Shown piece after piece: positions 12,342-34,132 of a stretch of 45,325 nt of DNA. A program made the position numbers and the translations under genes. Where the stretch lies: positions 1 to 45,325 of the IMG/VR virus record IMGVR_UViG_3300037089_000228, one strand, 5' to 3'. Origin of the DNA: a virus. The notes below the pieces were generated by a model, which was given only the letters and a program-made list of their open reading frames with translations, was not told the DNA's origin and did not search any database. Positions within the stretch are counted from its first letter, which is position 1; each line of letters begins with the position of its first letter.

Positions 12342-12977
12342 TTAATGCTTGATGACCTTGAGCCGGAACACGAGCACTGCGCCCGCGGTCGGCGTGGCGA
12401 CCTTGTTGAGGTACGCCTGCACCCACGCGCCGGCCACGCCGGTCAGCGGGTTGCCGCCCTGCGGTTCGTAGGCCGTCGCCCCAATCTGGTAGGGATTGAT
12501 CTGGGCCGAGCCTCCCGCGAAGCTGACCGGGTTGGTCTTGCCCGTGGAGATGTCGACGGGAGCCGAGTAGCGGACGGCGGAAGCCCCGTCCGTGAAAGTG
12601 GAGACCTGCGTCGGGTTCGACACCAGACCGGAGCCGGTGACATCATCGTCACCGACCGACAGGAGCAGGGAGGCGGCCACGCCGCTCACCGTGGGATTGC
12701 CCCCGGTAGCGCCGCTGCCACAAACCGTGCCCACGACCGACACCATCGTGCCCGGCTGCGCCAGGTAGAGGTTGATGATGTCCGAGGAAGCCTCGTTGCC
12801 GTACATCTGGTAGATGGCCGTGACCTCACGGACATTGCCGATCTCGATACCCGGATCATTGAAGCCCACATTCCCGAACGGCGTGCTGCCCTGTGAAATC
12901 GGGCCGCCGCCGGGAAAGTTGGCGAAGGGAATCTGCTCAAACGCGATTTGCGCGTAACGTGTGATGGGTGTTGCCAT
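12342..12977 (-). CDS. Second head protein (decoration/stabilising) candidate
   Basis: 211 residues, beta-rich and Gly/Ser/Thr/Val-rich, no charged helices, no enzyme motif. It contains PFGNVGFNDPGIEIGNVREV (about 33-52) and a C-terminal VFRLKVIKH. Good ribosome site (AGGAG, eight bases before ATG). It is 18 bases downstream of the major capsid gene and is followed by a terminator-like hairpin, so it is probably made in quantity. The position and composition fit a capsid-stabilising or decoration protein, but no family was recognised. Confidence 0.65.
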   Translation of the reverse strand: MATPITRYAQIAFEQIPFANFPGGGPISQGSTPFGNVGFNDPGIEIGNVREVTAIYQMYGNEASSDIINLYLAQPGTMVSVVGTVCGSGATGGNPTVSGVAASLLLSVGDDDVTGSGLVSNPTQVSTFTDGASAVRYSAPVDISTGKTNPVSFAGGSAQINPYQIGATAYEPQGGNPLTGVAGAWVQAYLNKVATPTAGAVLVFRLKVIKH

Positions 12978-12995: not shown

Positions 12996-13907
12996 TTACT
13001 GCGTTTCGTCGCAGGCCATCTGCACGACACCGGCCTCTTCCAGCCGGGTGCCCCCGGCGAAATAGGTCGTCCGCACCTGAATCGCGTGACTCTGCATGGG
13101 CAGGATGTCCATGCGGGTCGTCATGTCCTTGGTGGTGCCCAAGAGCAGGAATTTCTTCTGGTAGACGATGCAGCTCCGAATCGACGGGGTGCCCACGGTC
13201 GGGAGCAACTGGGTCCGAATCCAATGGAAGCCAAGGAATTCGGTCAGCCGCCCCTGCATGAGGGCGCGCACGTCGGCGTAGAGCACGTTGTCCACCTGAT
13301 CCACGTTGAGCAGCAGGTCGTAGAGCTGCTTGGCCGCGTAGACCATGACGCGATCCGTCTCCGGCACGTCGTTGGAGTCGAGCAGGAACAGCGCCTCGAT
13401 CATCTTGGCAAGCGTCATCCCGGTGTTGGTGGAGCCGGGAAACTGCACGCCAATCTGCTGCGCTGCGGGGAGCGGCGTGGGGTTCAGGCTGCCCTGCGCC
13501 CCGGTCTGGTTCGTGCCCAGCGCCGCGTTGATGAGTAACTGGTCCTTGAGCCGGTTGACCGCGATGGCGTGATTCATCGCAATCGGGCTCTGCGGATCAG
13601 GCAATGAACCGAGGAGGATGGGGTCATGCTCGTCGATCCATGAGGCTTTTTGGAAGCCGGTCGGAATGACCCAGCGGATGGCAGTCGGCACGTCGGACGG
13701 CTCCGTGACCGCGGCCCGTGCCGTGATCTGGCTCATCCCGTAGGACTGCGAACCCATCTGGTCATACCGCTTTTCGTTGCCGACAATCGTGTCGGATACG
13801 TAGTGACCGGCCAGTCGATGGTCGATCTGCTGCGCCATAATCATGAGCCAGTTCGTGTTGAACGTCGGCTCGTAATGCGGAGGCAGCGTGGTAACGCCGG
13901 AAGGCAT
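12996..13907 (-). CDS. Major capsid protein
   Basis: 303 residues. The N-terminal part (TFNTNWLMIMAQQIDHRL, residues 15-32, then GNEKRYDQMGSQSYGMSQIT, 43-62) and the C-terminal part (MDILPMQSHAIQVRTTYFAG, about 268-287, with TRLEEAGVVQMACDE) fit the HK97-type capsid proteins of BPP-1-like podoviruses. In that family the end typically reads as a beta strand with VR...GATR.E. Length is in the normal range. An AGGAG ribosome site precedes ATG by nine bases. Preceded by a 192-base structured leader with no gene, and followed by the second head protein, as expected for the capsid gene. No other candidate in the window fits. Confidence 0.8.
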   Translation of the reverse strand: MPSGVTTLPPHYEPTFNTNWLMIMAQQIDHRLAGHYVSDTIVGNEKRYDQMGSQSYGMSQITARAAVTEPSDVPTAIRWVIPTGFQKASWIDEHDPILLGSLPDPQSPIAMNHAIAVNRLKDQLLINAALGTNQTGAQGSLNPTPLPAAQQIGVQFPGSTNTGMTLAKMIEALFLLDSNDVPETDRVMVYAAKQLYDLLLNVDQVDNVLYADVRALMQGRLTEFLGFHWIRTQLLPTVGTPSIRSCIVYQKKFLLLGTTKDMTTRMDILPMQSHAIQVRTTYFAGGTRLEEAGVVQMACDETQ

Positions 13908-14099
13908 AGGAAAAATCTCCTGACAAAGGTGGCTGTCAGCCTGCCCCCGGAGTGTCGGGGAAATCCCGGTCCGGTTCTCGGCATCTCAAGTCCGAGGCGC
14001 CTCCGGTCCGGACTATGTCCGGGTCTCCCTCAGTTGTCCTCTACGCACACCGACAAAGGGTTTGTCGGCAGATGTCAAGCCCCAATTTTCACGCCCCGC
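13908..14099 (-). promoter_or_regulatory. Structured leader of the capsid gene with promoter-like -35
   Basis: 192 non-coding bases. Five perfect inverted repeats are visible. They are CTGACA/TGTCAG (13920-13939, next to the ribosome site), CCCCG/CGGGG (13945-13960), GAGGCGCCTC (13994-14003), CCGGAC-TAT-GTCCGG (14008-14022) and CCGACAAA-GGG-TTTGTCGG (14050-14068). On the minus strand TTGACA stands just upstream of the last hairpin, a perfect -35 match, but no clear -10 box is seen. The region could contain the capsid promoter, an operator, a processing site or a translational control element. It isolates the capsid genes from the glycan cassette. Confidence 0.55.
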
Positions 14100-14765
14100 T
14101 CAGTACTTCGCAAAGAGCGTGTGCTCCGGCTTCCACAGCTGGTCCCAGACCCGCTCCCATTCCCACGGTCCCGCCGAGACGGGCGGGCCGGGATGGCGAT
14201 CCCCGTAGAAGGTGGCCCCCGGCACGACCGGGCGGGCCAGCAGGATTTCCTGACACTTCTCGTAGAAAGCCTTGCTGCGCGTAAGTAGCGCCTTGCGGGA
14301 GGCGACGAAGAACGGGTGAGGCGAAAAGTACATGACCGGCGGCGCCGGACAGGTGAACAGCTGCACGAAGATTTCCCACACCGCCCGGTCCCAGACGTGC
14401 CCGTAGCAAAGCCCCTCGACGCGGTGGGGTTCGCACGACGCCCAGAAGTAAATCCCCGTCGCGGGGGTGAGGCACGCCCAGATCGCGGAGGACGGGAAGT
14501 GGTTGATGACCTCGACGGCGTTCTGGCACCCGTCGAACGGGTTGGCCTGCGCAAAGAAGGTCCATTCCGCGAGTGAGTCGTAGCGGTCGATGATGTGGTG
14601 CAGGAAGGTGTGGTCCTCCAGCCCCACGTTGGGCAGCGGAATCTCGCCCGGAACCTCCAGCCCGCCCTTGTTGTAAATCGTGATCTTGATATCCGGGCGC
14701 AAGGTGTTCATCCACGCCAGCTGCATGGGGTCTTCCTTGTAACGGGCAATGACGAGTTCGATCAT
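14100..14765 (-). CDS. DUF3431-like protein (glycan cassette, copy 1)
   Basis: 221 residues. It starts IELVIARYKEDPMQLAWM and continues with DIKITIYNKG (25-34), LPNVGLEDHTFLHHIIDRYD (44-63) and WTFFAQANPFDG (68-79). This is the DUF3431 signature: 'YNKG ... LPNVGxExxTxLxHIIxxYDxLA ... F.Q..PFDH'. The family is found near glycosyltransferases and is considered a glycosyltransferase-like fold, with no proven reaction. It is the last gene of the cassette. The next 192 bases lead to the capsid gene. It is a diverged paralogue of 14769-15386; both share the HI(I/V)xRYDSLAxWTFF core. The gap to that gene is three bases. Confidence 0.75.
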   Translation of the reverse strand: MIELVIARYKEDPMQLAWMNTLRPDIKITIYNKGGLEVPGEIPLPNVGLEDHTFLHHIIDRYDSLAEWTFFAQANPFDGCQNAVEVINHFPSSAIWACLTPATGIYFWASCEPHRVEGLCYGHVWDRAVWEIFVQLFTCPAPPVMYFSPHPFFVASRKALLTRSKAFYEKCQEILLARPVVPGATFYGDRHPGPPVSAGPWEWERVWDQLWKPEHTLFAKY

Positions 14766-14768
14766 GGG

Positions 14769-15386
14769 TTAAATCCTCGCTTGGTCTTTGTATTGACTGA
14801 GCCAAAGTGATCCCAGCAGTCGTTCGCACTCCCACGGACCCATCTCGCGGGCCTGAACGAGTGCCAGCAACCGCTCATAAAAGGCCCGGCTGCGCGTGCG
14901 CAACAGTTCACGGGTAGCGGCGAAGTGGAAGCCGGGCGAGAAGATCATTTCGGTCGGCGGCTCGCAGGCGTAGAGTTCCCGCCAGACCTGCTCCACCCGC
15001 TCCCTGACCGTCAGGGCAATCAGTTCGCGGCTCACGGCCCGGCCCCGCCCATCGCCCAGCGCCCAGCAGCTTCGCTCCACGTTCATCGGCTCGGTGGGGC
15101 ACAGGAAGCACAGCCCCGGCTCGGGCAGGTGCGTCAGCTGCCCCATCGAGAAGGGCCAGCCATTCATGATGGGCACGATGCGCGGCTCGTGGTCGAAGGG
15201 GTCGGCCTGGATGAAGAACGTCCAGTCGGCCAGCGAATCATAGCGGTTGACGATGTGGCTGAAATGCACGCCGGGGTCGAGTCCGTTGTCCGTCGTGGGA
15301 TAGACCGTGACCTTGATGAAGGGGCGCAGGAACCGAGTCCATCCAATGCGCTCGGTGGAGCGGGCGATGCAAACCTCGATGCTCAT
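14769..15386 (-). CDS. DUF3431-like protein (glycan cassette, copy 2)
   Basis: 205 residues, ATG at 15386 fixed by ATGA overlap with the fucosyltransferase stop; the open frame upstream is a shadow. MSIEVCIARSTERIGWTRFL is followed by IKVTVYPTTDNG, then HFSHIVNRYDSLADWTFFIQ and ADPFDH (41-66). These match the same DUF3431 core as the neighbouring gene, but the YNKG loop is replaced by YPTTDNG. The C-terminal half keeps a conserved arrangement with the paralogue (EMIFSPGFHFAATRELLRTR, then FYE, then WECERLLGSLW). A tandem duplication followed by divergence is the likely origin. The substrate is unknown. Confidence 0.7.
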   Translation of the reverse strand: MSIEVCIARSTERIGWTRFLRPFIKVTVYPTTDNGLDPGVHFSHIVNRYDSLADWTFFIQADPFDHEPRIVPIMNGWPFSMGQLTHLPEPGLCFLCPTEPMNVERSCWALGDGRGRAVSRELIALTVRERVEQVWRELYACEPPTEMIFSPGFHFAATRELLRTRSRAFYERLLALVQAREMGPWECERLLGSLWLSQYKDQARI

Positions 15387-16210
15387 GTTTCCTTCAGGCG
15401 AAGCTCGGTGCAGAACCAGTATCCCCTCGCCATCGGCGTGTGGTTGCCCTCGATGAAGGGCACCTTCTGCGGGGTCCGCAGGAGGCCCTTGGCGCCGGCG
15501 TCCGCGTCCACCCCCGAGAGGTCGGGGCAGAACACGCGCTCGTGGGTGCCCAGTTCCGCGCCCCACCATGAGAAGGTCGAGTTGGGCCGCAGCAGCACCT
15601 TGGCGCGCAGGAGCACCGCCCAGTCGGGCAGCCAGTCGAGGCGGCACTTGTCGCCCTCCAGCTTCCCCTTCTCGTGGTCATTCAATTCGTTCCACGGCAA
15701 CCCCACCGGGATGGCCGGGATGCGGTAGTGCGTTTCGCCGTCCAGCCAGTAGAGCTTGCTCTTGTCCAGTCCGTACTGGTCGCAGCAGTCCGTGAAGGAA
15801 TTGCGGTCAATCAGCACCAGCGGGTTGCAGGAATAGGTGTAATCCCCCTCCCGCACGTTGGCGACCAGTTCCATCGCGGGCACGTCCTTGACCAGCTCGG
15901 CGTACTCCGGGCGAAGCGTAAACCACTCCCGCGCCTTGGCGCGGCTGTAATAGTCGAGGTTCTTCTGCATCTGCCCCATGCCGATGATGGTGACGCCGCT
16001 CTCGCCGTCCCACTTCTCGCACTCGGTGTTGGGCCGCTCGGGCAAATCCTGGTCCGCCGGGGCGTTGGGCGGGATGACGAAAAACTTGTGCAGGATGCCG
16101 GTCAGGCACCGCAGCTCGAAGCCGTGCTTTTCGGCATAGGCGCGGGCGAAGGCGTACTCGAACATCTGGTTGCCGAGGCCGCCGGCCAGTCGTACTTGAA
16201 CGAAGCTCAT
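15383..16210 (-). CDS. GT11 family fucosyltransferase (alpha-1,2-type)
   Basis: 275 residues. The N-terminal nucleotide-sugar motif LAGGLGNQMFEYAFARAYA (8-26) is the hallmark of GT11 alpha-1,2-fucosyltransferases. The central VREGDY (119-124) corresponds to the family HxRRGDY motif, with the leading His replaced and one Arg replaced by Glu. RPNSTFSWWGAELG (208-221) matches the family NSSFSWWxA motif. The enzyme would transfer fucose, or a related deoxyhexose, from a GDP-sugar to a glycan. No GDP-fucose synthesis genes are present, so the donor must come from the host. It is ATGA-coupled to both neighbours. The altered central motif may affect activity or donor choice. Confidence 0.85.
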   Translation of the reverse strand: MSFVQVRLAGGLGNQMFEYAFARAYAEKHGFELRCLTGILHKFFVIPPNAPADQDLPERPNTECEKWDGESGVTIIGMGQMQKNLDYYSRAKAREWFTLRPEYAELVKDVPAMELVANVREGDYTYSCNPLVLIDRNSFTDCCDQYGLDKSKLYWLDGETHYRIPAIPVGLPWNELNDHEKGKLEGDKCRLDWLPDWAVLLRAKVLLRPNSTFSWWGAELGTHERVFCPDLSGVDADAGAKGLLRTPQKVPFIEGNHTPMARGYWFCTELRLKET

Positions 16211-16767
16211 GGGTAGAGAAAATCCCGAATGACGAGGAGTACGTCATCGAACCGGTTGTGAATGTCCCGAAGGTCAATGAGTTCGACTCGACGGGTAGGA
16301 TCAAGCTGCAAATAAACGTCGCGGTTCTCCCGCTGGCCGATGCGAGGCTCGGTTGCCAGATCAGCCACGTCCTCGATGACGTAGATGCCGTCCTTGGCGA
16401 GGTGTGGGGAAAGGTTGCGGTAGATGGCGATCTGGTCCCAGATGCGGTGGCTGGCATCGTCAATGATGATGTCGAACCTCATGCCGCCCAACTTGGTTTC
16501 CACCTCAAACGAGCTGGTCGCGTCCAGAATCTTCACCCGGTCGTCCTGGTAGGCGGTCGGGTCGTTGTCCACGCCGTAGACCTTGCCGTTCGGGAAGTAG
16601 GCGTCCCACATCCTGAGCGAGTCACCGGAGCACACCCCGATTTCCAGCAGGGTGATGGGCTTGAGGCGCAACCGTTCAAACAGCCGCTCATAGACCTCAA
16701 GGTAGGAGTGGATGGTCCCCTTGTCGGTCAGGGGAAACCGCGCTGCAATCTGGGCGAGGGTTTCCAT
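16207..16767 (-). CDS. SAM-dependent methyltransferase, class I (sugar O-methyltransferase type)
   Basis: 186 residues. The SAM-binding loop is LLEIGVCSGDSLRMW (40-54), followed by GKVYGVDNDP (61-70) with an acidic residue for the ribose. FDIIIDDASH (98-107) is motif IV, and DGIYVIEDVADL lies near 125-136. This combination (LEIGVxxGxSLxMW, then IIDDxSH) is typical of the macrocin/mycinamicin O-methyltransferase type that methylates sugars. Placed between a GT-A enzyme and the fucosyltransferase, with TGATG and ATGA overlaps, it is best read as capping a sugar with a methyl group. Confidence 0.8.
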   Translation of the reverse strand: METLAQIAARFPLTDKGTIHSYLEVYERLFERLRLKPITLLEIGVCSGDSLRMWDAYFPNGKVYGVDNDPTAYQDDRVKILDATSSFEVETKLGGMRFDIIIDDASHRIWDQIAIYRNLSPHLAKDGIYVIEDVADLATEPRIGQRENRDVYLQLDPTRRVELIDLRDIHNRFDDVLLVIRDFLYP

Positions 16768-17516
16768 CAGGGCACCACCTGATCCAAGAGCGGGAAGATG
16801 TAGTTGCGCTTCTCCTCAACGTGGACCATGCCCTTCTTCAGGTTGCCCCAGCCCTTCTCCCGGTTCTCCGCGCACATGCGCTCGATGTTGCCCTCATAGC
16901 GGGCGGCGATGGCCTCAGCGGGGCCGATCTGATGGTAGTGCAACAGGTAGGCGGAGGGCGTGGCGAAGGGCCAGTCATGGCCGACGCGCAGCTTGCGCCC
17001 GTCATGCAGCACCGGATCGGCCTCGTGCTGCCCGATGCCAAGGGCGCTGTCCCTGACCAGCTTCGGGTTGAAAAGGCATGGCTTCGCGTACCACTTGTCG
17101 TCGGGCGCGCCGAACTTGATCTCGTCGTAAATCTGGCCAGGACCGGTCGGCAGCCGCCCCGAGAACATCTCGAAGCCGTGCGTCTTGATGACCGCGGCTC
17201 CCTTAGCCATGTACGCCGCCAGCGTCTTCGCCGCACCCTCGGGGAACCAGATGAACTCGTCGGCGTCCACCACGATCACCCAGTCAGCGGTCGTGGCCTT
17301 CCAGCAGGAATTGCACAATTCCATGTACCGCGTGTTGCTCACCTCGGGGCAGTCCCACGGGATGATGACCACGCCCTTGGGCAATCGCAGTTTCAGCGGT
17401 TGCCCTGCGTTGTGGATGACCAGCTTCGATGCGAACGTCCGGTAGTGCCGGATGATGTACGGCAGCAGCCAGGTCTCGTAGTAGAACAGAACGTGAACCT
17501 CGACCTTGATTTTCAT
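16767..17516 (-). CDS. GT-A glycosyltransferase (Glyco_tranf_2_4-like)
   Basis: 249 residues; ATG at 17516 overlaps the stop of the upstream gene as TAATG. The protein opens KIKVEVHVLFYYETWLLPYI, a family-2-type beginning ('N E..LL.ywl.Hy'), and has IVVDADEFIWFPEG (81-94), where DAD is the metal-binding DxD. HDWPFATPSAYLLHYHQIGP (about 195-214) contains the late His pair usual in this family. It lacks a signal peptide and transmembrane segments, so it acts in the cytoplasm. Acceptor unknown. Its neighbours are a GT2 enzyme upstream and a methyltransferase downstream. Confidence 0.8.
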   Translation of the reverse strand: MKIKVEVHVLFYYETWLLPYIIRHYRTFASKLVIHNAGQPLKLRLPKGVVIIPWDCPEVSNTRYMELCNSCWKATTADWVIVVDADEFIWFPEGAAKTLAAYMAKGAAVIKTHGFEMFSGRLPTGPGQIYDEIKFGAPDDKWYAKPCLFNPKLVRDSALGIGQHEADPVLHDGRKLRVGHDWPFATPSAYLLHYHQIGPAEAIAARYEGNIERMCAENREKGWGNLKKGMVHVEEKRNYIFPLLDQVVP

Positions 17517-18184
17517 TAGACACCCGCCAGTTTCCGCAAATCCTCGTCTGACTTGAAAAACGGTGCATACGCCGCCGCGTCCTTGCCGATCAGCTTGCGC
17601 AGCTGCTTCAGGTCCGGGTCGGGGTTGGCATGGTTGGGCAGCATGGAGACATGCTCCCCGGAATATCCTATCGTTCCCGGCAGGGACTTCATGCCGATCA
17701 CCCGCCGCTCCCCGTCGCCGGGCAGGCGCAGGTGGCGGTTGCGCTCCAGCCTCCAGAGGCGCGTGTCGAACCACTGGTTGTCAAAGGCAGTGATGATGGA
17801 GCAGAAGGTCGGGATCAGGTCGGAACTGAGCGCGGTCTGACAGAGCGAGGCATGCCGGGCGTTCTCGCAGTTCGACCACCAGCGCCAGCGCACGTTGTAG
17901 TAGATGGCCTGCCCCTCGCCCACGATTTCATAACCCTTGGCCAGCCACTCCTCGCACCATTCCAGCCACGTCGGGGCGTACCAGTCGTCGTCCTCCCAGA
18001 TGACCAGACCGTCGCCCTTGACCCTGCCGCCCTCGAACGCCTTGAGCAGCTTGAAGCCCATTTTCTCCGGGCCGTCCAGCACGAGCCACTGGTCGGGCGG
18101 GCGCGTCTGCCGCTCGATGTACTTCCGGCAGAGCTTCATCGCCTCGGGGCGCTTCCACGTGGCGGTGATGACGGTCAGTTTCAT
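17516..18184 (-). CDS. GT2-like glycosyltransferase
   Basis: 222 residues, start set by ATGA overlap with the methyltransferase stop. MKLTVITATWKRPEAMKLCR is the classic N-terminal nucleotide-sugar strand of family 2. It is followed by DQWLVLDG (31-38) and VIWEDDDWYAPTWLEW (61-76), the D-x-D metal site with an aromatic follower. Basic residues RLERNRHLRLPGDGERRVIG come near 150-170. No membrane segments. The C-terminal part includes SLPGTIGYSGEHVS, which may form the acceptor site. One of three GT-A enzymes in the cassette, which suggests an oligosaccharide of at least three to four sugars. Confidence 0.8.
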   Translation of the reverse strand: MKLTVITATWKRPEAMKLCRKYIERQTRPPDQWLVLDGPEKMGFKLLKAFEGGRVKGDGLVIWEDDDWYAPTWLEWCEEWLAKGYEIVGEGQAIYYNVRWRWWSNCENARHASLCQTALSSDLIPTFCSIITAFDNQWFDTRLWRLERNRHLRLPGDGERRVIGMKSLPGTIGYSGEHVSMLPNHANPDPDLKQLRKLIGKDAAAYAPFFKSDEDLRKLAGV

Positions 18185-18774
18185 GGCTTGCCGTTGCGGT
18201 ACGCCCGCATCCCGTTCTGGTGGTGGTCGAGCGGATACTTTTCCATGAACAGGAACCACGGCTCCCACGGGAAGCCGATGAGTTCCAGCGCCTCGTTGAC
18301 GCAGATGCCGAACTCGGGAATCTCCGGGCCGGTGTACTCGTAGCCCGTGCGCTGCGACTTCGGGTTGGTGTCGTGGTACAGCATGAAGCCGCCCCTCACC
18401 ACCTTGCTAAAGAAATTGAAGGTGTCCAGAATGACGCCGTTGCGCGAGTGGTTGCCGTCCACAAACACGAGGTCGAGCCCGCCGGGCACGAGGTAGAACC
18501 CCTCCTCGGACTTGGTGCGGATCATCACGGCGCCGGGAAACGGGTCGGGACATTCATCGTGCAGGAGGAGGCTGGGTTCCACCCCCCAGTAGCGGATGGT
18601 TGAGCCGCGGTCCTCCAGAAACTTCTTCATGCCCCGCGCCGTGGCGCCATTGTAGGTGCCGATCTCGCAGACGCGCACCTCCGCCTTCTTGCAAAGCTCC
18701 GAGAGCGCGGCGTCCATCACGTCGCAGTCCTCCTCGAACATCATGCCATACCGCTCAAATAATGTGTGCTTCAT
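18181..18774 (-). CDS. SAM-dependent methyltransferase, class I (Methyltransf_24-like)
   Basis: 197 residues, ATG 18774 chosen because AAGGA precedes it at good spacing; the longer frame upstream is a shadow. Motif I is VRVCEIGTYNGATARGMKKF (33-52), then RYWGVEPS (61-68), and LDLVFVDGNHSRNGVILD (100-117), the Methyltransf_24 'D..fiDG.Hs' motif. An HDTNP sequence near 134-138 is the usual late His-Asp. The family includes enzymes acting on sugars and small molecules. Two bases separate it from the upstream glycosyltransferase stop, and ATGA couples it to the next glycosyltransferase. Confidence 0.8.
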   Translation of the reverse strand: MKHTLFERYGMMFEEDCDVMDAALSELCKKAEVRVCEIGTYNGATARGMKKFLEDRGSTIRYWGVEPSLLLHDECPDPFPGAVMIRTKSEEGFYLVPGGLDLVFVDGNHSRNGVILDTFNFFSKVVRGGFMLYHDTNPKSQRTGYEYTGPEIPEFGICVNEALELIGFPWEPWFLFMEKYPLDHHQNGMRAYRNGKP

Positions 18775-18776
18775 GG

Positions 18777-19532
18777 TTACTTCCTTGGTTTCTTGAGGTG
18801 GATCACCTTGTCCTCCGTGGGCTCCTGCCCCGGTATCGGCGGCCATTCGCCCGCAGGGTAGAGCGTGCCGTCCCCGTCGCGGTGCTTCAGCTTGACCGCC
18901 GTGTCCACCCAGACCGAGATGCGGCACATGCGGCAGAGATAGTCGCAGAAATAGTCCTCCGGCAGCAGGTCGCCCGCCTTCTGGAGGTCGTGGTAGACGA
19001 CGAGGTTTTGGAAGAAGCCGTTCACCACGCTGCCGGTGTCCCGGTCGGTGTAGGAAATCTGCGGGTAAATCTTGGCAAGGTTTTCAAACAGCTGGCGATG
19101 GTAGAGCTTGAGGCCCGCCCCGCACTCCATGACCTGAAGCACGGTCTCCTTCTGCTTCTCCGCCTCAAACAGGAAGGTCGCCACCCAGTGCGGCCTGACC
19201 CCCTTGGTCGTGTAGAGCGCGCCAATGACCGGCAGCTTCTTGGACAGCAGTTGCAGGACGTGCGCGGCGTTTGATTCCACGTCATAGTCGCGGAAAAGGA
19301 GCCACTTGCACTTGCTCTTGAGAAAGTTTTCCACCAGCCGGTTGCGGGCGGGGATGAGCCCCTGGTCGCAAAAGGCCAGCACGAACTCGTAGGGGCAGTC
19401 CGGGTCGCGGGAGAGCAGGGTCAGGTCGTCCAGTTGCGCGGCGAACTGCGGGTTGAGCTGCTTGAGCGTCCGCAAATCCTTCAGCGGAGTCGCCACCATG
19501 ACCTGAATCTTCTTTGGGCGTTTATGTTTCAT
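18777..19532 (-). CDS. GT-A-like glycosyltransferase, first gene of the cassette
   Basis: 251 residues from ATG 19532 (a TTG twelve bases upstream is also open). A basic start is followed by KIQVMVATPLKDL and PYEFVLAFCDQGLIPARNRL (47-66), then WLLFRDYDVE (77-86). The order 'P..RN.l...Fl....llf.D.D' is typical of phage and bacterial GT-A glycosyltransferases; DYD is the probable metal site. YHRQLFENL (near 147-155) and LLPEDYFCDYLCRM (about 191-204) also fit. It overlaps the GroES-like gene by 11 bases, so the cassette is transcribed with the head genes. Confidence 0.75.
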   Translation of the reverse strand: MKHKRPKKIQVMVATPLKDLRTLKQLNPQFAAQLDDLTLLSRDPDCPYEFVLAFCDQGLIPARNRLVENFLKSKCKWLLFRDYDVESNAAHVLQLLSKKLPVIGALYTTKGVRPHWVATFLFEAEKQKETVLQVMECGAGLKLYHRQLFENLAKIYPQISYTDRDTGSVVNGFFQNLVVYHDLQKAGDLLPEDYFCDYLCRMCRISVWVDTAVKLKHRDGDGTLYPAGEWPPIPGQEPTEDKVIHLKKPRK

Positions 19533-19800
19533 GGGCCAGTCCAACTAGGTCTTGTTCTCGGAGCAGGGTGAAGGTGCGGTTGTCCCAGTGGTAGTGGTCG
19601 CCCGCATAGTCCTTCAGGGCCACGCGGTCGCCCACCTTGCACGCCGTCACGCGGGCGCCGACGCCCACCACCGTCGCCAGCACGGTCGGGGCGTAGCGGG
19701 TCGTTTTCTCAAGGCACTCGGGCACGAGGATGGCCCCCACCTTGAGCGGCTTGGCCGGGTCTTTCTCGACCAGCACGCGGTTGCCAATGGGCTGGATCAT
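19522..19800 (-). CDS. GroES-like co-chaperonin (Cpn10)
   Basis: 92 residues, the normal GroES length (about 95). The start IQPIGNRVLVEKDPAKP matches Cpn10 'I.PL.DRVLV...'. The mobile loop carries hydrophobic GAILVPE (22-28; GroES has GGIVL). ATVVGVGARVTACKVGDRVA (42-61) matches 'G.V.AVG.G......VKVGD.V', and the end FTLLREQDLVGL matches 'Y.i..E.DILA'. It would cap the host GroEL during folding of phage proteins, as T4 gp31 does for its capsid protein. It sits in the head operon, two genes after the scaffold and before the glycan cassette, ATGA-coupled to the upstream gene. Confidence 0.85.
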   Translation of the reverse strand: MIQPIGNRVLVEKDPAKPLKVGAILVPECLEKTTRYAPTVLATVVGVGARVTACKVGDRVALKDYAGDHYHWDNRTFTLLREQDLVGLAHET

Positions 19801-20231: not shown

Positions 20232-21203
20232 TCAGGTTCCCGATTGCCCCCGCTGCGGGCGGTTTGCGTGCGCCAGCCGGCGCAGGCTGTTGACCTTCTC
20301 CACCGCCGCCTCGTGCGCCTCCGCCGAAATGTTCCCCTGGTTCCAGTAGGCCGCCCAGTCGGGGTTGTTCTTGTTCGATTGGATGTCCACCGCCGCCGCC
20401 TCCGCCGTGGCCGGCGTAAGGTTGCCCGCCAAGGCGATGTTGCCCATGTCTCCCGTCACGAGCTTGGACTCGCTCATCAAGCCGCCCAGCCGCGCCAGCA
20501 TCATGAAGATCGTGGCGTCCTTCATGTACATGCTCTTGGCGTCCACGCCCCAGCGGCGCCCGGCGCGGGCCGCCAAGTCCTGCGCCTTCTCGTAGCTGAC
20601 GCCGAGTTCCTTCTGGATGTGCTCGCGGATCAGCTGGTCCTGCCGGGTGAGAAATTCCTGCTCGGCCTGCTGCTGCGCCGCCCCCGCCTTCTTGGCCATG
20701 TCGATCTGGAGCTTGGCCAAGCCCTGCAATGCCTGCGGGGAAAGGCCGTTTTCAAAAGCGAGCTTGGCCGCTTGGTCGGCAAACTCCTGATTCCACTGCG
20801 CCTCGGGGATGTCATCGGGGCGCTTGAGACCGTAGCCCTCCGGCTTCTCGGGCGCGCCGTTCACCTTGCGCAGCAGCGCCTGCCGCTCCGCCACCATCTC
20901 GGGCGTGGCGTTGGGCGGCAGCGGCTCCACGATGCCCTTCTTCGAGGCGAAGCTGGCCTTTTCCTTGAAGCTCTTGATGAAGTCGCCGGGCGTCTTGTAG
21001 ACGGACAATTCCTTGGCCAGCGCCTTGATGTCGTCGGGAGCCTTGTCGAGGCGGGTGTGGTCGAAGGTGCCGTCGTTCTTGACCCAGCCCTGCTCCCAGT
21101 GTTCGGTCGAGGCGGGTGCGCCGCCGCCGGCCTGCGCATTAGGGTCCAGGCTTTGGGCCGGCTGGGTGTTGGGGTCGGATGACTGGCTGGTGGGGTCTGG
21201 CAT
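20232..21203 (-). CDS. Scaffolding protein candidate
   Basis: 323 residues. The N-terminus (1-35) is Gln/Pro/Ser/Asp-rich and disordered. The body is highly helical and charged, with EFADQAAKLAFENGLSPQAL (about 139-158), a QQQAEQEFLTRQDQLIREHI coiled stretch and a basic end (RRLAHANRPQRGQSG). The same layout (acidic disordered start, helical body, basic C-terminus, about 300 residues, downstream of the portal) is usual in podovirus scaffold proteins. In most relatives the capsid gene follows directly; here about 6.3 kb intervenes. Its 5' end is overlapped by a small coupled frame (21139-21312). Confidence 0.75.
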   Translation of the reverse strand: MPDPTSQSSDPNTQPAQSLDPNAQAGGGAPASTEHWEQGWVKNDGTFDHTRLDKAPDDIKALAKELSVYKTPGDFIKSFKEKASFASKKGIVEPLPPNATPEMVAERQALLRKVNGAPEKPEGYGLKRPDDIPEAQWNQEFADQAAKLAFENGLSPQALQGLAKLQIDMAKKAGAAQQQAEQEFLTRQDQLIREHIQKELGVSYEKAQDLAARAGRRWGVDAKSMYMKDATIFMMLARLGGLMSESKLVTGDMGNIALAGNLTPATAEAAAVDIQSNKNNPDWAAYWNQGNISAEAHEAAVEKVNSLRRLAHANRPQRGQSGT

Positions 21204-21312
21204 GAGGGGGAATGATTGGGGGTTTGGGAGCGAAGTTTTCCACGGTCAGGCGGCCATCCGCAAAGCGCGTGGTCTTGGAGAAGATTTGGAAGCGCGGCTT
21301 GTCCTTGGTCAT
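21139..21312 (-). CDS. Small frame coupled to tailspike stop, overlapping scaffold start
   Basis: 57 residues (MTKDKPRFQIFSKTTRFADG, then RLTVENFAPKPPIIPP). The ATG overlaps the stop of the tailspike gene as ATGA, and the frame runs 65 bases into the scaffold gene in another frame. The first 30 residues look like a real beta-rich peptide; the remainder is Pro-rich and dictated by the scaffold codons. Possibly a small virion protein whose translation leads ribosomes to the scaffold start. No homology is claimed. Confidence 0.5.
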   Translation of the reverse strand: MTKDKPRFQIFSKTTRFADGRLTVENFAPKPPIIPPHARPHQPVIRPQHPAGPKPGP

Positions 21313-22586
21313 GTCGTGACGAAGCCGCCGTTGTTTACGAGCAGCGTGCCGCCGCCGTTGATGCGGTTGGTCGAGCCGCAGCTGCCGTTGGAGCAGGAGG
21401 CGTCGACGTAGACGCCGGTCTGGTTGGTGTCGGCCCAGAAGACGTTGCCGAGGATCGACACGCAGACGCAGCGATAGAGCTTGACGCAGCTGACGGTGTA
21501 GTTGCCGGCATCCTTGGGGGAGAAGTCGCTGCCACTGATGACGAGGTTGTCCACCCAGGCGCCGTAGGCCGAGGGGGAGAAGTCGATGTACTGGCAGTTG
21601 CCGCCGGGTTCGAACTCGCAGTCGGCGATGATGACCCGCGTGAGACGGCCTGAAGTTGCCGGCCCGTTAAACTCGCACGCCCCGCTTGCGAAGTCCTCGA
21701 ATTGACAGCCGGTGAACCAGAGATCGGCGGAAACCTGACCGTTCGTATGTTGCCATGTAAATCCCCACCCACCGCCCTGAAATAGGCAGTGATCGAACTT
21801 GAGGCCGTCCACGTAGGCTAAAACCCCGGTGGTCGAGCCGTCAAAGGTGCAATTGACGAAAGTGCCTCCGCCTTTATCCAGACTGACCACGTTGGTGATA
21901 TTGACGCCGTTGGTGCCCTGCGTGAAGATGCTCTTGGACACCATGATGCCAGCCACGTTGAGGTTAATGGAGTTGGTGCCACCGATGAACGAGCAGGCGT
22001 CGATGATGCTTCCGCCGTTGTAGTAAGGGGGCACAGAGGAGGCGGTGATGGTGCAGGAGCTAGTGCCGCCCGTGGTCTGCAGGGCGATGCCCCGCAAGGT
22101 GACGCTGTAGACCGTGTCGATCTTGAGGGCCTCGGAGGCGTTGCTCTGCTGGACCTTGGTGCAGTCCCGCCCGTCGCCCAGGACCGTGCACGGGACGGTG
22201 ATCGAGCTGATGGCGGCGTTGACGTAGTAGATCCCAACCCCGCCGCCGGGGAAGTAGAGCGTGCCACCGCCGTTCGCATTCAGCGCAGCGATGGCGGCGT
22301 TGATGGCGTTGGCGTTGGCCGTCTGGACGGTGCTGGTCTGGCCGGACCCGTTGACGGCGCCATAACTCTGAACATTGAAAAAAATGGAACTACTGCCCGG
22401 ACCAACTACATCGCCGGCTCCACCCGTGGCTGTCACTTTCACAATGCCCGTGCCCGGCTTGGGATCAACCGTGATGCCCGTTCCCGCAAGAATCTGCGAG
22501 ACCCCCGGCGCCGCCGTGCTGGGCTGGACTACGGCAGAGGACCGGGCCTGCGCGCTCAGTCCCGATGAAAAGACCTTGCGGGCCAT
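21309..22586 (-). CDS. Tailspike-type beta-helix protein (pectate-lyase-like)
   Basis: 425 residues. An N-terminal Ser/Ala/Gly-rich segment (1-70) leads to FFNVQSYGAVNGSG (about 69-82) and ANAINAAIAALNANGGGTLY (91-110). This is the start of the pectate lyase_3 / GH28-type right-handed beta helix ('v.dfGAkGDG.tDdt.Ai..Ai.a.....g..v..P.G.Y'). Repeating turns rich in Asn, Gly and Cys follow (SIIDACSFIGGTNSIN, FVNCTFDGSTTG, VIIADCEFEPGGNCQYIDFS). There are many cysteines for a phage spike. Such proteins bind or cut surface polysaccharide. Its location among portal and scaffold genes rather than with the fibre is unusual. No clear catalytic Asp pair could be assigned. Confidence 0.75.
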   Translation of the reverse strand: MARKVFSSGLSAQARSSAVVQPSTAAPGVSQILAGTGITVDPKPGTGIVKVTATGGAGDVVGPGSSSIFFNVQSYGAVNGSGQTSTVQTANANAINAAIAALNANGGGTLYFPGGGVGIYYVNAAISSITVPCTVLGDGRDCTKVQQSNASEALKIDTVYSVTLRGIALQTTGGTSSCTITASSVPPYYNGGSIIDACSFIGGTNSINLNVAGIMVSKSIFTQGTNGVNITNVVSLDKGGGTFVNCTFDGSTTGVLAYVDGLKFDHCLFQGGGWGFTWQHTNGQVSADLWFTGCQFEDFASGACEFNGPATSGRLTRVIIADCEFEPGGNCQYIDFSPSAYGAWVDNLVISGSDFSPKDAGNYTVSCVKLYRCVCVSILGNVFWADTNQTGVYVDASCSNGSCGSTNRINGGGTLLVNNGGFVTT

Positions 22587-23986: not shown

Positions 23987-25801
23987 TTACTGGTTGCCTG
24001 CCTTGGGAAATTGCTCCATCACGGCGTCCTGCATCCCCTGCGGGGCGCGCCCGATGTCCTTGCCTGCCTTGGCGGCCATCTGGGCCATTTCGAGGGCACG
24101 CTGCTCGGCAATCTGCTTGGCCCGCTGCTGGCGGATGGCGTCCCGCGACTTCGTGGACCGGAAATACTTTTCCCTCAGTCCAAAGTCGCGCCCGGTGCCC
24201 CGCGACAGCTCATCCGTTTCAAAATTGTCCAGCACATCCCGCGGGGTGTTGGCGGTCAGCTTGGCCAGCGGTTGCAGGACCGAGAGCGTCTTCTCGACCG
24301 CCGCGTTCTTGATCTCGTTCATGGCAAGCGTCACGCGGCTCTTGATGAGAATCTTGGGCACAGCCAGCTCGGGCGCGGCCTGCGGATCGTTGCCGGGGCG
24401 AACCATCAGCGACAGCGGGGCCTTGGGCAACCGCCCGGCGCGCAGCATGATGCCGAGGCAGCGGGGGATCAGCAGGTTGATGACCTCGGTGCGGTACTGG
24501 TCGAAGGTGCCGGTGAACTGGTCCAGCTTTTCCCCGACCCGCTGCGCGACCTCCGTGGCCGTCATGTCCTTTTCCAGCAGCATCCCGAGCGCCTTGAACA
24601 CGTCCACGAAAAAGGCGTCGTTGATGGCCTGCTCCTTGCGCTTGATGATCTCGACAATCTCCAGCGTCTCGCCCTTGGTGCCCCATTCCTGCGGCAGGCG
24701 GTTGTGTTCCATGTCCTCGCCCTTGACGACGGTGACGGAGCCGGGGGCGTACTCCACCTCGCCCGTCTGGGAGTCGGGCACGAAGAGGCGCGGGAACGCC
24801 TTTTGCTCCACGAGCGCGTCGTAGGACTCGACGACGTAGTTGAGCTGGCGGGCGTCGGTCAGGGTCTCGAAGGCCGGCGAATAACCGTAGGGCTGGTCGT
24901 CGCTTCCCCATGAGTCCCAGCGCAGGCAGAAATAGGGCATCTCCTCATAGCCTCCCAGCGCGACGATCTCCTTCGTGTCGTCGTCCTGATAGACCGAGGC
25001 GAAGGCCATGCGCGAGGCGCCCACCCCGCCGTCGTCGGGCATGGTGCCGCCCAGCTCCTTGAAGTCCTCCATCGGCAGGACGTGGTGGACGTAGGTGGCC
25101 TTCTGGTCATACTTCTCGGCAGCGATCAAATCCTGCTGCTTCGAGGGCAGGTTCTTCTTTCCCCACCGCTGCGCGGCCTGCCGCAGTGAGAGCTTGAACC
25201 AGCGGTCCACCGTGTCCACGATCTTCTGGTCGTTCTCCGCGATGGTGAAGGTGCCGACCTTGAACTGCTCGAAATGGAACGTGCTCGTCTTGCCCTCGCC
25301 GCAGTACATGAGCGCGGTGCCGAAGATGCAGGCCCCCTTGTTGAAGGGCTGCACGACGGAATAGAAACGGCTGGCCTGCAACTCCTCCGTCAACTGCTCG
25401 GCCACCTCGGCACACCAGCGCGTGGCGTCGTCCATGCCGTCCGCGTCCACCGGGTTCCCCTGCGGCTCGGCGAGGCGGGCAAGGCGCGGGTTGCGGGCAG
25501 CCGGGCTCGAGGCCATGAGGTTGGGCGGCGGGGCCAGTCCCAGCCAATTTTCGGTCGCGGGCGTGACCCAGTTGCGCACGCCAATCGCGCAAGTCGAGGC
25601 GGCGCGGATCGGCTGCGTGTCGTAAATCTGCTGCGTCCAGTCGAGCGAGCCCTCGGTGCGCTGCGTGTTGATGTCGGAGGACTGCGGGAAGAAGTACTGA
25701 GAAATCGTCTGCCACTGCGCGTCGAATTTTGCCTGCCGGTCGGACTGGCGCGCCGCGGCGATCTTGTGCAGCTTCTTGCCGATGTCCTCGAAACCGGTCA
25801 T
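23987..25801 (-). CDS. Portal (head-to-tail connecting) protein
   Basis: 604 residues; ATG 25801 overlaps the upstream stop as ATGA. It belongs to the head-to-tail connecting protein family of podoviruses. The start carries a helical DAQWQTISQYFFPQ segment (about 28-41) and the family-typical IYDTQPIRAASTCAIGVRNW (about 59-78) with TPATENWLGL. HFEQFKVGTFTIAENDQKIV and DRWFKLSLRQAAQRWGKK (near 190-225) are also usual. The later ALVEQKAFPRLFVPD, PQEWGTKGETLEI and KRKEQAINDAFFVDVFKALG complete the stem/wing region. It forms the dodecameric DNA entry ring at one capsid vertex and docks TerL. Length and order (TerL, small genes, portal) are as expected. Confidence 0.9.
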   Translation of the reverse strand: MTGFEDIGKKLHKIAAARQSDRQAKFDAQWQTISQYFFPQSSDINTQRTEGSLDWTQQIYDTQPIRAASTCAIGVRNWVTPATENWLGLAPPPNLMASSPAARNPRLARLAEPQGNPVDADGMDDATRWCAEVAEQLTEELQASRFYSVVQPFNKGACIFGTALMYCGEGKTSTFHFEQFKVGTFTIAENDQKIVDTVDRWFKLSLRQAAQRWGKKNLPSKQQDLIAAEKYDQKATYVHHVLPMEDFKELGGTMPDDGGVGASRMAFASVYQDDDTKEIVALGGYEEMPYFCLRWDSWGSDDQPYGYSPAFETLTDARQLNYVVESYDALVEQKAFPRLFVPDSQTGEVEYAPGSVTVVKGEDMEHNRLPQEWGTKGETLEIVEIIKRKEQAINDAFFVDVFKALGMLLEKDMTATEVAQRVGEKLDQFTGTFDQYRTEVINLLIPRCLGIMLRAGRLPKAPLSLMVRPGNDPQAAPELAVPKILIKSRVTLAMNEIKNAAVEKTLSVLQPLAKLTANTPRDVLDNFETDELSRGTGRDFGLREKYFRSTKSRDAIRQQRAKQIAEQRALEMAQMAAKAGKDIGRAPQGMQDAVMEQFPKAGNQ

Positions 25802-26109
25802 GGCGTGACCCAACTTTGCGCCAGCGCCTTGGCGCGGGCCTTGATGATGCGTACGCAGAAGACGGCCACCAGCTCGTCAAGCGAGTGGACCTGCTCGATC
25901 TGGTACTTGCGCAGGTGCTTGTGGTTCATCGCCTGCACCTTGAGCAGCATTTCCTCCAGCACCTTGAACTCGTGGGGGTCGAGCGGTCGGCCCAGCGCAC
26001 GAGTGCATTCGTCTAGGTGCTGCTGCGTCACGATGGGCGACATAGCCGTCTCGGGCGGGAGGGGCTGGTCGGGATGCCAGCCGGGGGCGGGTTCGCGCAG
26101 GTCGATCAT
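25798..26109 (-). CDS. Small hypothetical protein before portal
   Basis: 103 residues. A Pro-rich start (DLREPAPGWHPDQPLPPETA) is followed by helical segments (LDPHEFKVLEEMLLKVQAMN, LDELVAVFCVRIIKARAKAL). No domain recognised. ATGA-coupled to the portal gene. A 3-base gap separates it from the upstream 99-residue gene. Confidence 0.7.
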   Translation of the reverse strand: MIDLREPAPGWHPDQPLPPETAMSPIVTQQHLDECTRALGRPLDPHEFKVLEEMLLKVQAMNHKHLRKYQIEQVHSLDELVAVFCVRIIKARAKALAQSWVTP

Positions 26110-26779: not shown

Positions 26780-26955
26780 CGCTTGCCTTGGATAACGGCT
26801 TGAATCTCCCTAAACTCCTTTTCGCTTATCTGTGGAACGTCCTTGAGAAGTTCTTTCAGACCTTGAACCAAGGCCTGATTTCTCTTTGGATTCCAACAGT
26901 TCAGGTAGGCCGCCTCTATCTCTTCGTCGGTGTAGTTTGGTGTTTTGTCATTCAT
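26776..26955 (-). CDS. 59-residue gene coupled to TerL
   Basis: The frame MNDKTPNYTDEEIEAAYLNC continues for 59 residues to QAVIQGKR. The ATG (26955) overlaps the TerL stop as ATGA, and its own stop overlaps the next ATG as ATGA, so both ends are fixed by coupling. Acidic and helical, with an EKEFREIQAVIQ C-terminal helix. Function unknown. Confidence 0.7.
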   Translation of the reverse strand: MNDKTPNYTDEEIEAAYLNCWNPKRNQALVQGLKELLKDVPQISEKEFREIQAVIQGKR

Positions 26956-28361
26956 CGGTTGACCCTGATCCGGTTGTACCCGTCCCCGTAGTATTGCTTG
27001 CGCTGCCGGCTCACCTTGATCCGCGCCGGCCCGCCGGGCGAGGTGGCAATCTCGCTGTGCCCCTCCAGCATCCCCTGCGAGTACGCCTCCGCGAAGGTCC
27101 GCAGGGCGTCCGCCAAATGGCTGTACTGGTCATGCACGGGCACGTCGGTGATGAGTCCCGTCGAGGCTTCCTCCTTTTTCGAGTAATAGTCAAGCGCGTC
27201 GATGCCGCTGGGCATCTTCAGGTCGCCCAGCATCCACGTGCCGGAGCACCCCTCGCTATTGATGTACACCCGCGGCAGCAAAGCCCGCATCTGGTCAATC
27301 GAGCGCCAGATGTCCATCGTCCGCGCCACCGTCCGCGTCCGGTCCAGCCCCGCCTCCTTCAGGTAGTCCTGCGTCGTCTTGCCCACCTGGTTGCGCTGCT
27401 TCGCGTCGTGCGGCAGGTAGTTCTGGGCCACGCGCAGGTGGTACTTGTCCTCCCACTCCCGCACCTTCGCCGCGTAATACGCCGGCGTCTCCCCGGTGCG
27501 GCTGAAACTCTCCAAGAGCAGGATGTCGCGCTGCACCAGCTGCACCAGCCACACCGCCCAGTCGTCGCCGCGGTCGCTGTGCCCGATGTCCCAGAAGGTG
27601 TAGAGCGGGGCCTGCGTGTCCGCCAGGACCAGCTTCAGCCGCCCCTGCCGCCGCAGGTCGTCCATCTGCTTCCCGTAAATCGCGTTCGCAATCGAGGCGT
27701 TCACGTCCAGCTCCCACTGCATCAGGTAGGCCGCCTCCCCCATCATCGAGCGCTGCCTCGCCAGCTCCTCCGGCGAATAAATCCCGCTCTCGCTCGCCCG
27801 CAGGTACATCGTGAATATCCCCGGCTTGCCCACGCTGTGCTGGTACCGGTCAAACAGGTTGTGCCGCCCCGTCAGGTACCCCGAATACACCACAAACCCC
27901 TTGTGCGCCGCCAGCGCCGGGGCCAAATCAATCGAGGTGCCCGGCGGAATCTCGTCCGCCTCGTCAAAGTACACCCCGTCCAATGCCTGTCCCACCCCCC
28001 GCGAAGTGTCCGACCCGTACAGCGTGAACCGCCCCGCATTGGGGTATTCTATCGCCAGCTCGCTCTCAATCACCCGGTGCCCCGGTATCGGCTCCGAAAA
28101 GTGCTTCAGCCGCTCCCACGCAATCTCCTTCGCCCTCACCCGCGTCGGGTAGAACCACGCATATCGCGGAGGCGGATCACGCCGCCCGTTCGCGCAGCAC
28201 CGCCACTGCCCGTCATTGCAGATGGCAATGGTCTTCCCGGCCTGCCGGTGGCAGATGACCACCGACTCGTTCTCAACTCTTCGATGAAACGGGAGAAACG
28301 CAGGTCGGGGGGTGTACGGGATCCGGCACTCGGCAACTCTCGGGACGGGTTCATTGCTCAT
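26952..28361 (-). CDS. terL: Terminase large subunit
   Basis: 469 residues. ATPase: Walker A-like HRQAGKT (38-44), and Walker B GVYFDEADE (129-137) with the catalytic Glu; GYLTGRHNLFDRYQH resembles motif III (SAT/coupling region). Nuclease: YTFWDIGHSDRGDDWAVW (254-271) supplies the first acidic residue (Asp258), and HDQYSHLADALRTF near 436-449 the last. The enzyme translocates DNA into the prohead through the portal and cuts concatemers. ATGA overlaps couple it to the 61-residue gene before it and the 59-residue gene after it. Its codons are unusually rich in C at third positions compared with the small early genes. Confidence 0.95.
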   Translation of the reverse strand: MSNEPVPRVAECRIPYTPRPAFLPFHRRVENESVVICHRQAGKTIAICNDGQWRCCANGRRDPPPRYAWFYPTRVRAKEIAWERLKHFSEPIPGHRVIESELAIEYPNAGRFTLYGSDTSRGVGQALDGVYFDEADEIPPGTSIDLAPALAAHKGFVVYSGYLTGRHNLFDRYQHSVGKPGIFTMYLRASESGIYSPEELARQRSMMGEAAYLMQWELDVNASIANAIYGKQMDDLRRQGRLKLVLADTQAPLYTFWDIGHSDRGDDWAVWLVQLVQRDILLLESFSRTGETPAYYAAKVREWEDKYHLRVAQNYLPHDAKQRNQVGKTTQDYLKEAGLDRTRTVARTMDIWRSIDQMRALLPRVYINSEGCSGTWMLGDLKMPSGIDALDYYSKKEEASTGLITDVPVHDQYSHLADALRTFAEAYSQGMLEGHSEIATSPGGPARIKVSRQRKQYYGDGYNRIRVNR

Positions 28362-33550: not shown

Positions 33551-34132
33551 ATGTGCCAGTACAAATCAGCCATCGTTCTCCGCGACGAGAAATGCAAGGG
33601 CGGTTTCCAGCTGCTCTTTTCGCCGTGGACGGAAAGCCATGACGAGCTTTGCATCATCCACAAGCTGCTGGTCAACGACAAGAAGCTCCAGCTTGCCAAG
33701 GTGGAATTTTCGCCCGCAAGCATGGACAAGGCCCACCTGATCGACGAGTACAAGCTTACGATAGACGAGGAGCGCACCCCGGACTGGTTCGACAAGGAAA
33801 TGCAGGAGAAGGTCACGAATCGCCTGCGTAACTATATCAAGTCCATCATCGTCGATGGCGACGTGGAGCTACTCATCGGCGGTCAGTTCGTGATCGCGCC
33901 AAGCGCCAAAATCCAATGCGCCCGTTCAATGGTGATCTCTGCGATTTGGGGTGGCACCGTGAATGCGATTTGGGGTGGCACCGTGAATGAGATTTGGGGT
34001 GGCACCGTGAATGAGATTCGGGGTGGCACCGTGAATGCGATTCGGGGTGGCACCGTGAATGAGATTTGGGGTGGCACCGTGAATGTTCATTCCGGCGCAA
34101 TCATCGTCAAAGACAATCGCCCCAAGAAATGA
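33551..34132 (+). CDS. Protein with six 8-residue IWGGTVN repeats
   Basis: 193 residues. The N-terminal 130 residues are an unknown alpha/beta domain (YKSAIVLRDEKCKGGFQLLF, HDELCIIHKLLVNDKKLQLA, DEYKLTIDEERTPDWFDKEM). At residues 131-178 come six copies of [A/E]-I-[W/R]-GGTVN, then a short end (VHSGAIIVKDNRPKK). The periodic I/W, GG and TV strongly suggest stacked short beta turns, as in solenoid or polyglycine-like folds. Similar IxGGT(V/I)xx repeats are known in phage hypothetical proteins. The 24-bp DNA repeat would permit rapid change in repeat number. Confidence 0.7.
   Translation: MCQYKSAIVLRDEKCKGGFQLLFSPWTESHDELCIIHKLLVNDKKLQLAKVEFSPASMDKAHLIDEYKLTIDEERTPDWFDKEMQEKVTNRLRNYIKSIIVDGDVELLIGGQFVIAPSAKIQCARSMVISAIWGGTVNAIWGGTVNEIWGGTVNEIRGGTVNAIRGGTVNEIWGGTVNVHSGAIIVKDNRPKK
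33941..34084 (+). repeat. Six tandem 24-bp coding repeats
   Basis: Units begin at 33941, 33965, 33989, 34013, 34037 and 34061. Consensus is G[C/A]GATT[T/C]GGGG followed by TGGCACCGTGAAT. Only two positions vary, in different combinations (units 1-2 identical; units 3 and 6 identical), which suggests recent expansion and recombination among units. Confidence 0.95.

Follow-up and report, generated by a model that had tools for sequence, protein, structure and literature searches.

Known virion glycosylation and the cassette studied here

Few phages are known to have glycosylated particles, and most of these are mycobacteriophages that have one or two glycosyltransferases. Mycobacteriophages glycosylate capsid and tail tube proteins by means of their own glycosyltransferases, as in Che8 (gp110), Corndog (gp38) and Myrna (cited in PMC12363180). 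The chlorovirus PBCV-1 has a capsid glycan machinery that includes A064R and A061L (PMC9614988). The locus compared with them here belongs to the IMG/VR virus record IMGVR_UViG_3300037089_000228, the whole of which (45,325 bases, hereafter the window) was analysed and which represents a podovirus-like phage from soil or wetland. On its minus strand, at 14100-19532, a cassette of eight tightly packed genes lies with a GroES-like gene on one side and the major capsid gene on the other, encoding three GT-A glycosyltransferases, a GT11-type enzyme, two sugar-type O-methyltransferases and two DUF3431 proteins; all eight are present at the coordinates given in the initial annotation of this DNA, and their families are assigned from Pfam, PHROG, structural or homologue matches of varying strength. 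The preferred explanation, to which a probability of about 0.5 is given, is that the cassette is a modular, soluble, phage-encoded oligosaccharide system glycosylating virion proteins. Its genes, lettered from the GroES-like gene towards the capsid gene, and its borders are the following:

19522..19800, minus strand: GroES-like co-chaperonin (Pfam Cpn10 4.4e-11, phrog_3188), immediately preceding gene A and forming the left edge of the site of insertion
18777..19532, minus strand: gene A, GT-A fold glycosyltransferase, Anp1-like, with a DYD motif (PF03452 6e-5, under its curated cut-off; phrog_1574 2e-10)
18181..18774, minus strand: gene B, class I S-adenosylmethionine methyltransferase, Methyltransf_24 (PF13578 7e-10)
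17516..18184, minus strand: gene C, GT2-type glycosyltransferase with an EDDDW motif (PF00535 E 0.038, weak alone)
16767..17516, minus strand: gene D, GT2-type glycosyltransferase, Glyco_tranf_2_4, with a DADEF motif (PF13704 3e-8, above cut-off)
16207..16767, minus strand: gene E, sugar O-methyltransferase of MycE/TylE type, 186 amino acids (aa) (Methyltransf_24; 3ssm 5.6e-14, 8ia9 5.4e-13)
15383..16210, minus strand: gene F, GT11-type enzyme of the alpha-1,2-fucosyltransferase family (phrog_2644 1.3e-9)
14769..15386, minus strand: gene G, DUF3431 protein, paralogue of H (PF11913 28.5 bits against a cut-off of 25)
14100..14765, minus strand: gene H, DUF3431 protein (PF11913 38.9 bits)
12996..13907, minus strand: major capsid protein, a candidate acceptor (phrog_3437 8.5e-46)

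Layout of the cassette and missing membrane partners

The junctions from GroES through H measure -11, +2, -4, -1, -1, -4, -4 and +3 nucleotides (nt), which makes translational coupling within the cassette likely; six of the eight overlap, and the remaining two are gaps of 2-3 nt, so the earlier statement that every gene is coupled by a start/stop overlap applies to most junctions but not to all. The earlier picture of soluble enzymes for glycan building that are encoded together in the head operon, and look co-transcribed, is supported. The cassette resembles the adjacent structural genes in both guanine-cytosine (GC) content and GC content at third codon positions (GC3), and so shows nothing that would point to a recent foreign insertion.

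Regarding partners for export or for another substrate, the record has no match to GtrA (PF04138) or to the thymidylate-synthase family (PF00303), the source of hydroxymethylases, no integrase was found in it, and no open reading frame (ORF) has more than two predicted membrane segments, that is, no multi-spanning protein is predicted. The predicted lack of a flippase or membrane glycosyltransferase of the serotype-conversion type is thereby supported, and the glycosyltransferase genes stand without a recognised lipid-carrier export system. Since integrase, hydroxymethylase, GtrA and multi-spanning proteins were not found, protein glycosylation in the cytoplasm is the simplest reading. A 26.7-kb contig of an Armatimonadetes fen metagenome-assembled genome (MAG; PMZA01000513.1, loci L207, L216 and L217) matches the record at ~99-100% identity along most of the contig and bridges the two record ends; the map may therefore be circular and nearly complete, in which case these gene absences carry weight, although a part may be missing.

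A constant core with exchangeable partner genes

Capsid-based searches found relatives of the phage; those that carry the cassette, in this or in re-assorted form, at the corresponding position have capsid proteins that are 76-95% identical. The initial annotation had proposed searching related contigs for the block: a complete copy is present on contig 3300039412_000175, with proteins 61-95% identical, and further relatives share the core, so that the cassette is beyond a chance assembly. Between GroES and the capsid gene, L004 carries A, a methyltransferase (MTy) and a C-D fusion; L027 and L029 carry A-C-MTy-D; L016, L018 and L024 carry A-C-D-MTx-F-FkbM, MTx being another methyltransferase; and L021 to L023 carry A-C-UDP-glucose-dehydrogenase-like-D-MTx-F-DUF3431-FkbM. 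Thus A, C and D are the constant core, while F (GT11), DUF3431, the methyltransferases (MTx, MTy), FkbM and the UDP-glucose-dehydrogenase-like genes vary.

The same site is naturally empty in 11 contigs (L005 to L015), which have ~180 nt from GroES to the capsid gene, and those checked have 43-45% GC. The cassette is also missing from 20 more distant capsid relatives. In HTVC010P, Vibrio phage 1.182 and two Manatee Spring phages, the annotation shows no glycosyltransferase in the portal-to-capsid interval. The capsid tree lacks resolution around the single group into which the cassette-free contigs fall, and therefore gain and loss of the cassette are indistinguishable. Gene content, intact motifs, the shared site, re-assortment, the empty site and the absence of recognised partners for membrane export or DNA modification are all direct observations; the variable composition and the empty sites, as well as the leader RNA and the GroES gene described below, had been overlooked before.

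The module is also found at other positions. In L073 and L075, which have related head genes, A, B, C, D and further methyltransferases are found upstream of TerL and not beside GroES, with F also in L073; L074 and L077, which lack a sequence match to the head genes of the window, have a GT9-type gene together with C, D and either F or MTy. The GT9 family is known from lipopolysaccharide (LPS) synthesis, and its identity here is Pfam-confirmed for L074 only, that of L077 being judged by eye. The recurrence of A, C, D and methyltransferases across positions and phage types indicates that they would act on one product, and the fusion of C to D, seen in L004 and L073, implies joint action of these two enzymes. 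Moreover, a genome of Armatimonadota (G155, contig C190; L238, 2279-7190) has, among the probable tail genes of a siphovirus, a block that encodes a GT4, a GT2, a D-like enzyme (38% identity) and a methyltransferase; small genes and then the tape measure gene follow it directly. This is a second, unrelated structural operon with a similar block.

Enzymes A to F

A GT-A fold or a family profile together with an acidic DxD-type motif was found in A, C and D, which in C consists of the weak PF00535 match and EDDDW only. The AlphaFold model of A has a predicted local distance difference test (pLDDT) score of 85 and places DYD at residues 82-84; Foldseek searches with this model matched STIV A197, mimivirus R699, COLGALT1 and Mnn9 with moderate template modelling (TM) scores of ~0.45, from which the fold class can be read but not the specificity.

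Gene E aligns over residues 4-135 with MycE (3ssm), including FDIIIDDASH and VIED, and it also matches 8ia9, a demethylmacrocin O-methyltransferase. The DDxSH and IED motifs are conserved, and we take their residues to be the metal ligands and the base of the MycE structure; E is predicted to methylate a sugar hydroxyl.

Gene F had been called a GT11 fucosyltransferase, an assignment that stands through its relatives, as F itself has no Pfam family and gave no match to PF01531 at E up to 1. Its homologues are 39-44% identical, nine of the ten aligned members match PF01531 (best 1.7e-24), and G13, N14, R120, D123, S211, T212, F213 and W216 are invariant in the alignment, with G122 and N210 nearly so. 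The motifs are GGLGNQ, RxGDY and NSTFSWW, with Asn replacing the usual His of HxRxGDY. By these homologues, their PF01531 matches and the conserved motifs F is assigned to GT11, and from its family it probably adds fucose. The term "fucosylated", used earlier for the glycan, follows from the family in the same way; no gene of the GDP-fucose pathway is recognised in the window, and no gmd match in the MAG that contains this phage exceeds the curated cut-off. Searching 50,697 phage records by tblastn with C, F, H and a DUF3431 relative gave no matches, and sequence searches of the PDB with A, D, F and DUF3431 profiles returned nothing useful.

DUF3431 proteins and a possible link to galactofuranose

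An AlphaFold prediction for DUF3431 with six sequences reached a pLDDT of 33, which supports no fold assignment, and the genomic neighbourhood is more informative. Outside this phage group, UDP-galactopyranose mutase is found in 13 of 25 DUF3431 loci, in 11 of them (~8 distinct) close by and on the same strand, compared with none of the 186 other fetched loci. The two genes stand side by side in unrelated viral contigs (L124, L126, L129, L131, L135, L145, L146 and L149), and the mutase (GLF) of L124 is confirmed by Pfam (7e-74). This co-occurrence suggests that some DUF3431 proteins may use galactofuranose. For G and H the link is a lead only, as the window has no recognised mutase gene; likewise, no UDP-galactopyranose mutase lies in the ~3.6 kb around DUF3431 in two Armatimonadota genomes, the association thus being observed for viral contigs alone. 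When bacterial genomes were scanned once for DUF3431, the MAG copy of this phage was the only result.

Proposed virion glycosylation and its alternatives

The pathway that we infer, comprising the activities, sugars, order, acceptor and benefit, would be as follows. Virion proteins would be glycosylated in the host cytoplasm, prior to or during head assembly, with sugar nucleotides supplied by the host. One core GT-A enzyme, perhaps A, would begin the chain on Ser, Thr, Asn or a similar side chain, C and D would lengthen it, F would cap it, probably with fucose, and G and H probably with further sugars, possibly galactofuranose, while B and E would O-methylate the glycan. With the A-C-D core retained and the capping enzymes swapped among phages, the glycan of the particle would vary like a serotype. 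Besides the gene content, the recurring core and the missing membrane partners, this explanation is favoured by the structural matches of A to viral and protein-directed glycosyltransferases, by the C-D fusion, by the independent glycosyltransferase block upstream of the tape measure gene in the Armatimonadota siphovirus, and by the precedents of mycobacteriophages and chloroviruses. A fuller proposal is more tentative: an exchangeable assembly line may coat virion proteins with a methylated, fucose-containing glycan that varies like a virion serotype, and DUF3431 may be a new galactofuranosyltransferase-like family.

Several observations weigh against an acceptor on the virion. The module of the unrelated L074 and L077 lies on the strand opposite to the late genes, adjoining the GT9-type gene, and therefore location alone does not fix the acceptor. 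In the window, a conserved leader of 192 nt separates the cassette from the capsid gene, which consequently is not translationally coupled to it. The capsid protein of the cassette-free sisters is 79-81% identical, and the remaining head genes also have clear orthologues in them; no virion protein private to cassette-bearing phages was found, and because portal, scaffold, capsid, decoration and tail tube orthologues occur in cassette-free phages, gene content does not mark the acceptor, which is a candidate only. In addition, no sugar-nucleotide genes are recognised in the window. The proposal of a virion glycosylation system made in the initial annotation is thus upheld by the gene set, the recurring core and the missing membrane partners, but weakened by the unmarked acceptor and the opposite-strand copies. 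Besides the capsid protein, one candidate acceptor is:

12342..12977, minus strand: deco, 211 aa, candidate decoration protein (no family match; role inferred from position only)

When the lengths and the Ser/Thr/Asn content of head and tail proteins were compared between phages with and without the cassette, only deco was longer with it (193-217 against 187-189 aa), a weak difference that follows clades and is accompanied by a lower Ser/Thr content; since it is clade-linked and the Ser/Thr content is lower, deco length was not used as acceptor evidence.

Another explanation, judged unlikely, is that the enzymes alter a precursor of a host cell-surface glycan (LPS core or lipid-linked oligosaccharide) on the cytoplasmic side, which host flippases would then export, the altered surface blocking other phages or the binding of progeny to debris. 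O-antigen and LPS-core pathways do typically contain soluble GT-A, GT9 and GT11 enzymes together with sugar methyltransferases, a GT9-type gene accompanies the module in L074 and, by eye, in L077, and the module changes position and strand; however, the record holds neither a GtrA match nor a multi-spanning membrane protein, no integrase was found and hence no evidence of a lysogen to protect, and in related phages the cassette occupies one fixed site in the late head operon. A late-gene placement is also late for host takeover, and a series of four glycosyltransferases plus methyltransferases is better suited to an oligosaccharide than to one isolated modification; it is therefore improbable that a small molecule, a nucleotide sugar product or some other target in the cytoplasm (tRNA or a host protein) is made or modified by the enzymes in takeover or defence unrelated to the particle, despite the resemblance of E to macrolide-sugar methyltransferases and the classing of phage glycosyltransferases such as phrog_2644 by PHROGs as moron or host-takeover. 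Decoration of the phage DNA, as in the glucosyl-hydroxymethylcytosine of T4, seems hardly credible: phage DNA glycosylation exists and the window encodes a DNA methyltransferase (39527-40645), but this is an ordinary N6/N4 DNA methylase, the record has no gene of the thymidylate-synthase family (dUMP and dCMP hydroxymethylases), and none of the cassette glycosyltransferases matched DNA-glucosyltransferase families.

Leader RNA and genome context

The right border of the insertion site is formed by a conserved RNA in the leader of the capsid gene:

13936..14043, minus strand: conserved structured RNA in the capsid gene leader (alignment covariation)

The leader, which follows the cassette or, in its absence, GroES, is 161-201 nt long, ~105 nt of which form the conserved structure. 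It has 21 pairs, with 98.4% of cells paired and eight pairs changed on both sides, and a covariation of 0.352 compared to 0.116 after shuffling, in an alignment of only nine distinct sequences. The structure is kept across low-GC (43-45%) and high-GC (60-62%) phages, its model matches only upstream of the capsid gene in this phage group among the loci searched, and Rfam gave no match for it. A TTGACA at the start of the leader was considered as a promoter and rejected, because a consensus scan showed no promoter-like site there.

On the minus strand, the gene order is TerL, portal, a 230-aa gene, the spike-like gene, the putative scaffold, a 143-aa gene, GroES, the eight cassette genes, the major capsid gene, deco, and tail tube genes A and B. 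The cassette had been placed between scaffold and capsid, which is correct as to the head operon; more precisely, the 143-aa gene and GroES follow the scaffold, and the leader precedes the capsid gene. The upstream structural genes are:

26952-28361, minus strand: TerL
23987-25813, minus strand: portal
21309-22586, minus strand: spike-like gene
20232..21203, minus strand: putative scaffold (phrog_3742 3e-15, function unannotated in PHROGs; role inferred from position)

The GroES-like gene adjoins the capsid region in cassette-bearing and cassette-free relatives alike, and its retention near the capsid gene in both sets suggests a role in capsid folding. Two similar fibre-anchor-like genes lie at opposite ends of the record (200-853 and 44538-45188), with 81% DNA identity over ~630 bp, and probably represent a single locus of a circular genome in two variants. 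Beside a fibre-anchor gene, 886-2166 encodes a 426-aa protein with no Pfam or PHROG match that looks ATP-grasp-like by eye only, and an ORF at 33551-34132 has in-frame repeats of the type AIWGGTVNEIWGGTVN. The binning of the phage contig in the MAG hints at a possible Armatimonadetes host, binning alone being no proof of host.

Comparison with known systems

The constant core, the variable caps and the natural empty sites in sister phages provide a built-in comparison for the role of a virion glycan outside the animal immune system, with receptor binding, protection from protozoa or proteases and adhesion in peat as candidate roles. The cassette is also a starting point for studying DUF3431, which Pfam lists without a function.

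As in the mycobacteriophages, the glycosyltransferases are phage-encoded, and the acceptors there are capsid and tail-tube proteins; however, those reports describe one or two glycosyltransferases per phage, whereas here four are joined by two methyltransferases and two DUF3431 proteins in a head operon, with exchangeable content and an acceptor that is only a candidate. PBCV-1 likewise employs virus-encoded GT-A-type enzymes and sugar O-methyltransferases to build a methylated oligosaccharide, and the C-D fusion parallels the multidomain A064R, but its host is a eukaryotic alga, and N-glycans on its major capsid protein are proven; the resemblance drawn here is one of logic. The Gtr cassettes for O-antigen (serotype) conversion in temperate phages are similar in carrying phage glycosyl-transfer genes; the present cassette, however, belongs to the head operon, and GtrA, a multi-spanning glycosyltransferase and an integrase were all looked for in the record and not found. 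DNA glucosylation of the T4 type differs in its hydroxymethylase of the thymidylate-synthase family, which was not found here. Regarding single enzymes, E shares DDxSH and IED with MycE/TylE (3ssm, 8ia9) but lacks the N-terminal region of MycE, and F shares the motifs of GT11 alpha-1,2-fucosyltransferases, differing by Asn in place of His and by having no PF01531 match of its own.

A literature search, with most subscription journals outside its reach, returned no description of a phage with such a multi-enzyme, exchangeable head-operon cassette, and we know of none. The proposed kind of system is already known from the virion glycosylation of phages and chloroviruses, and what seems new is its form as a multi-enzyme, exchangeable cassette in the head operon.

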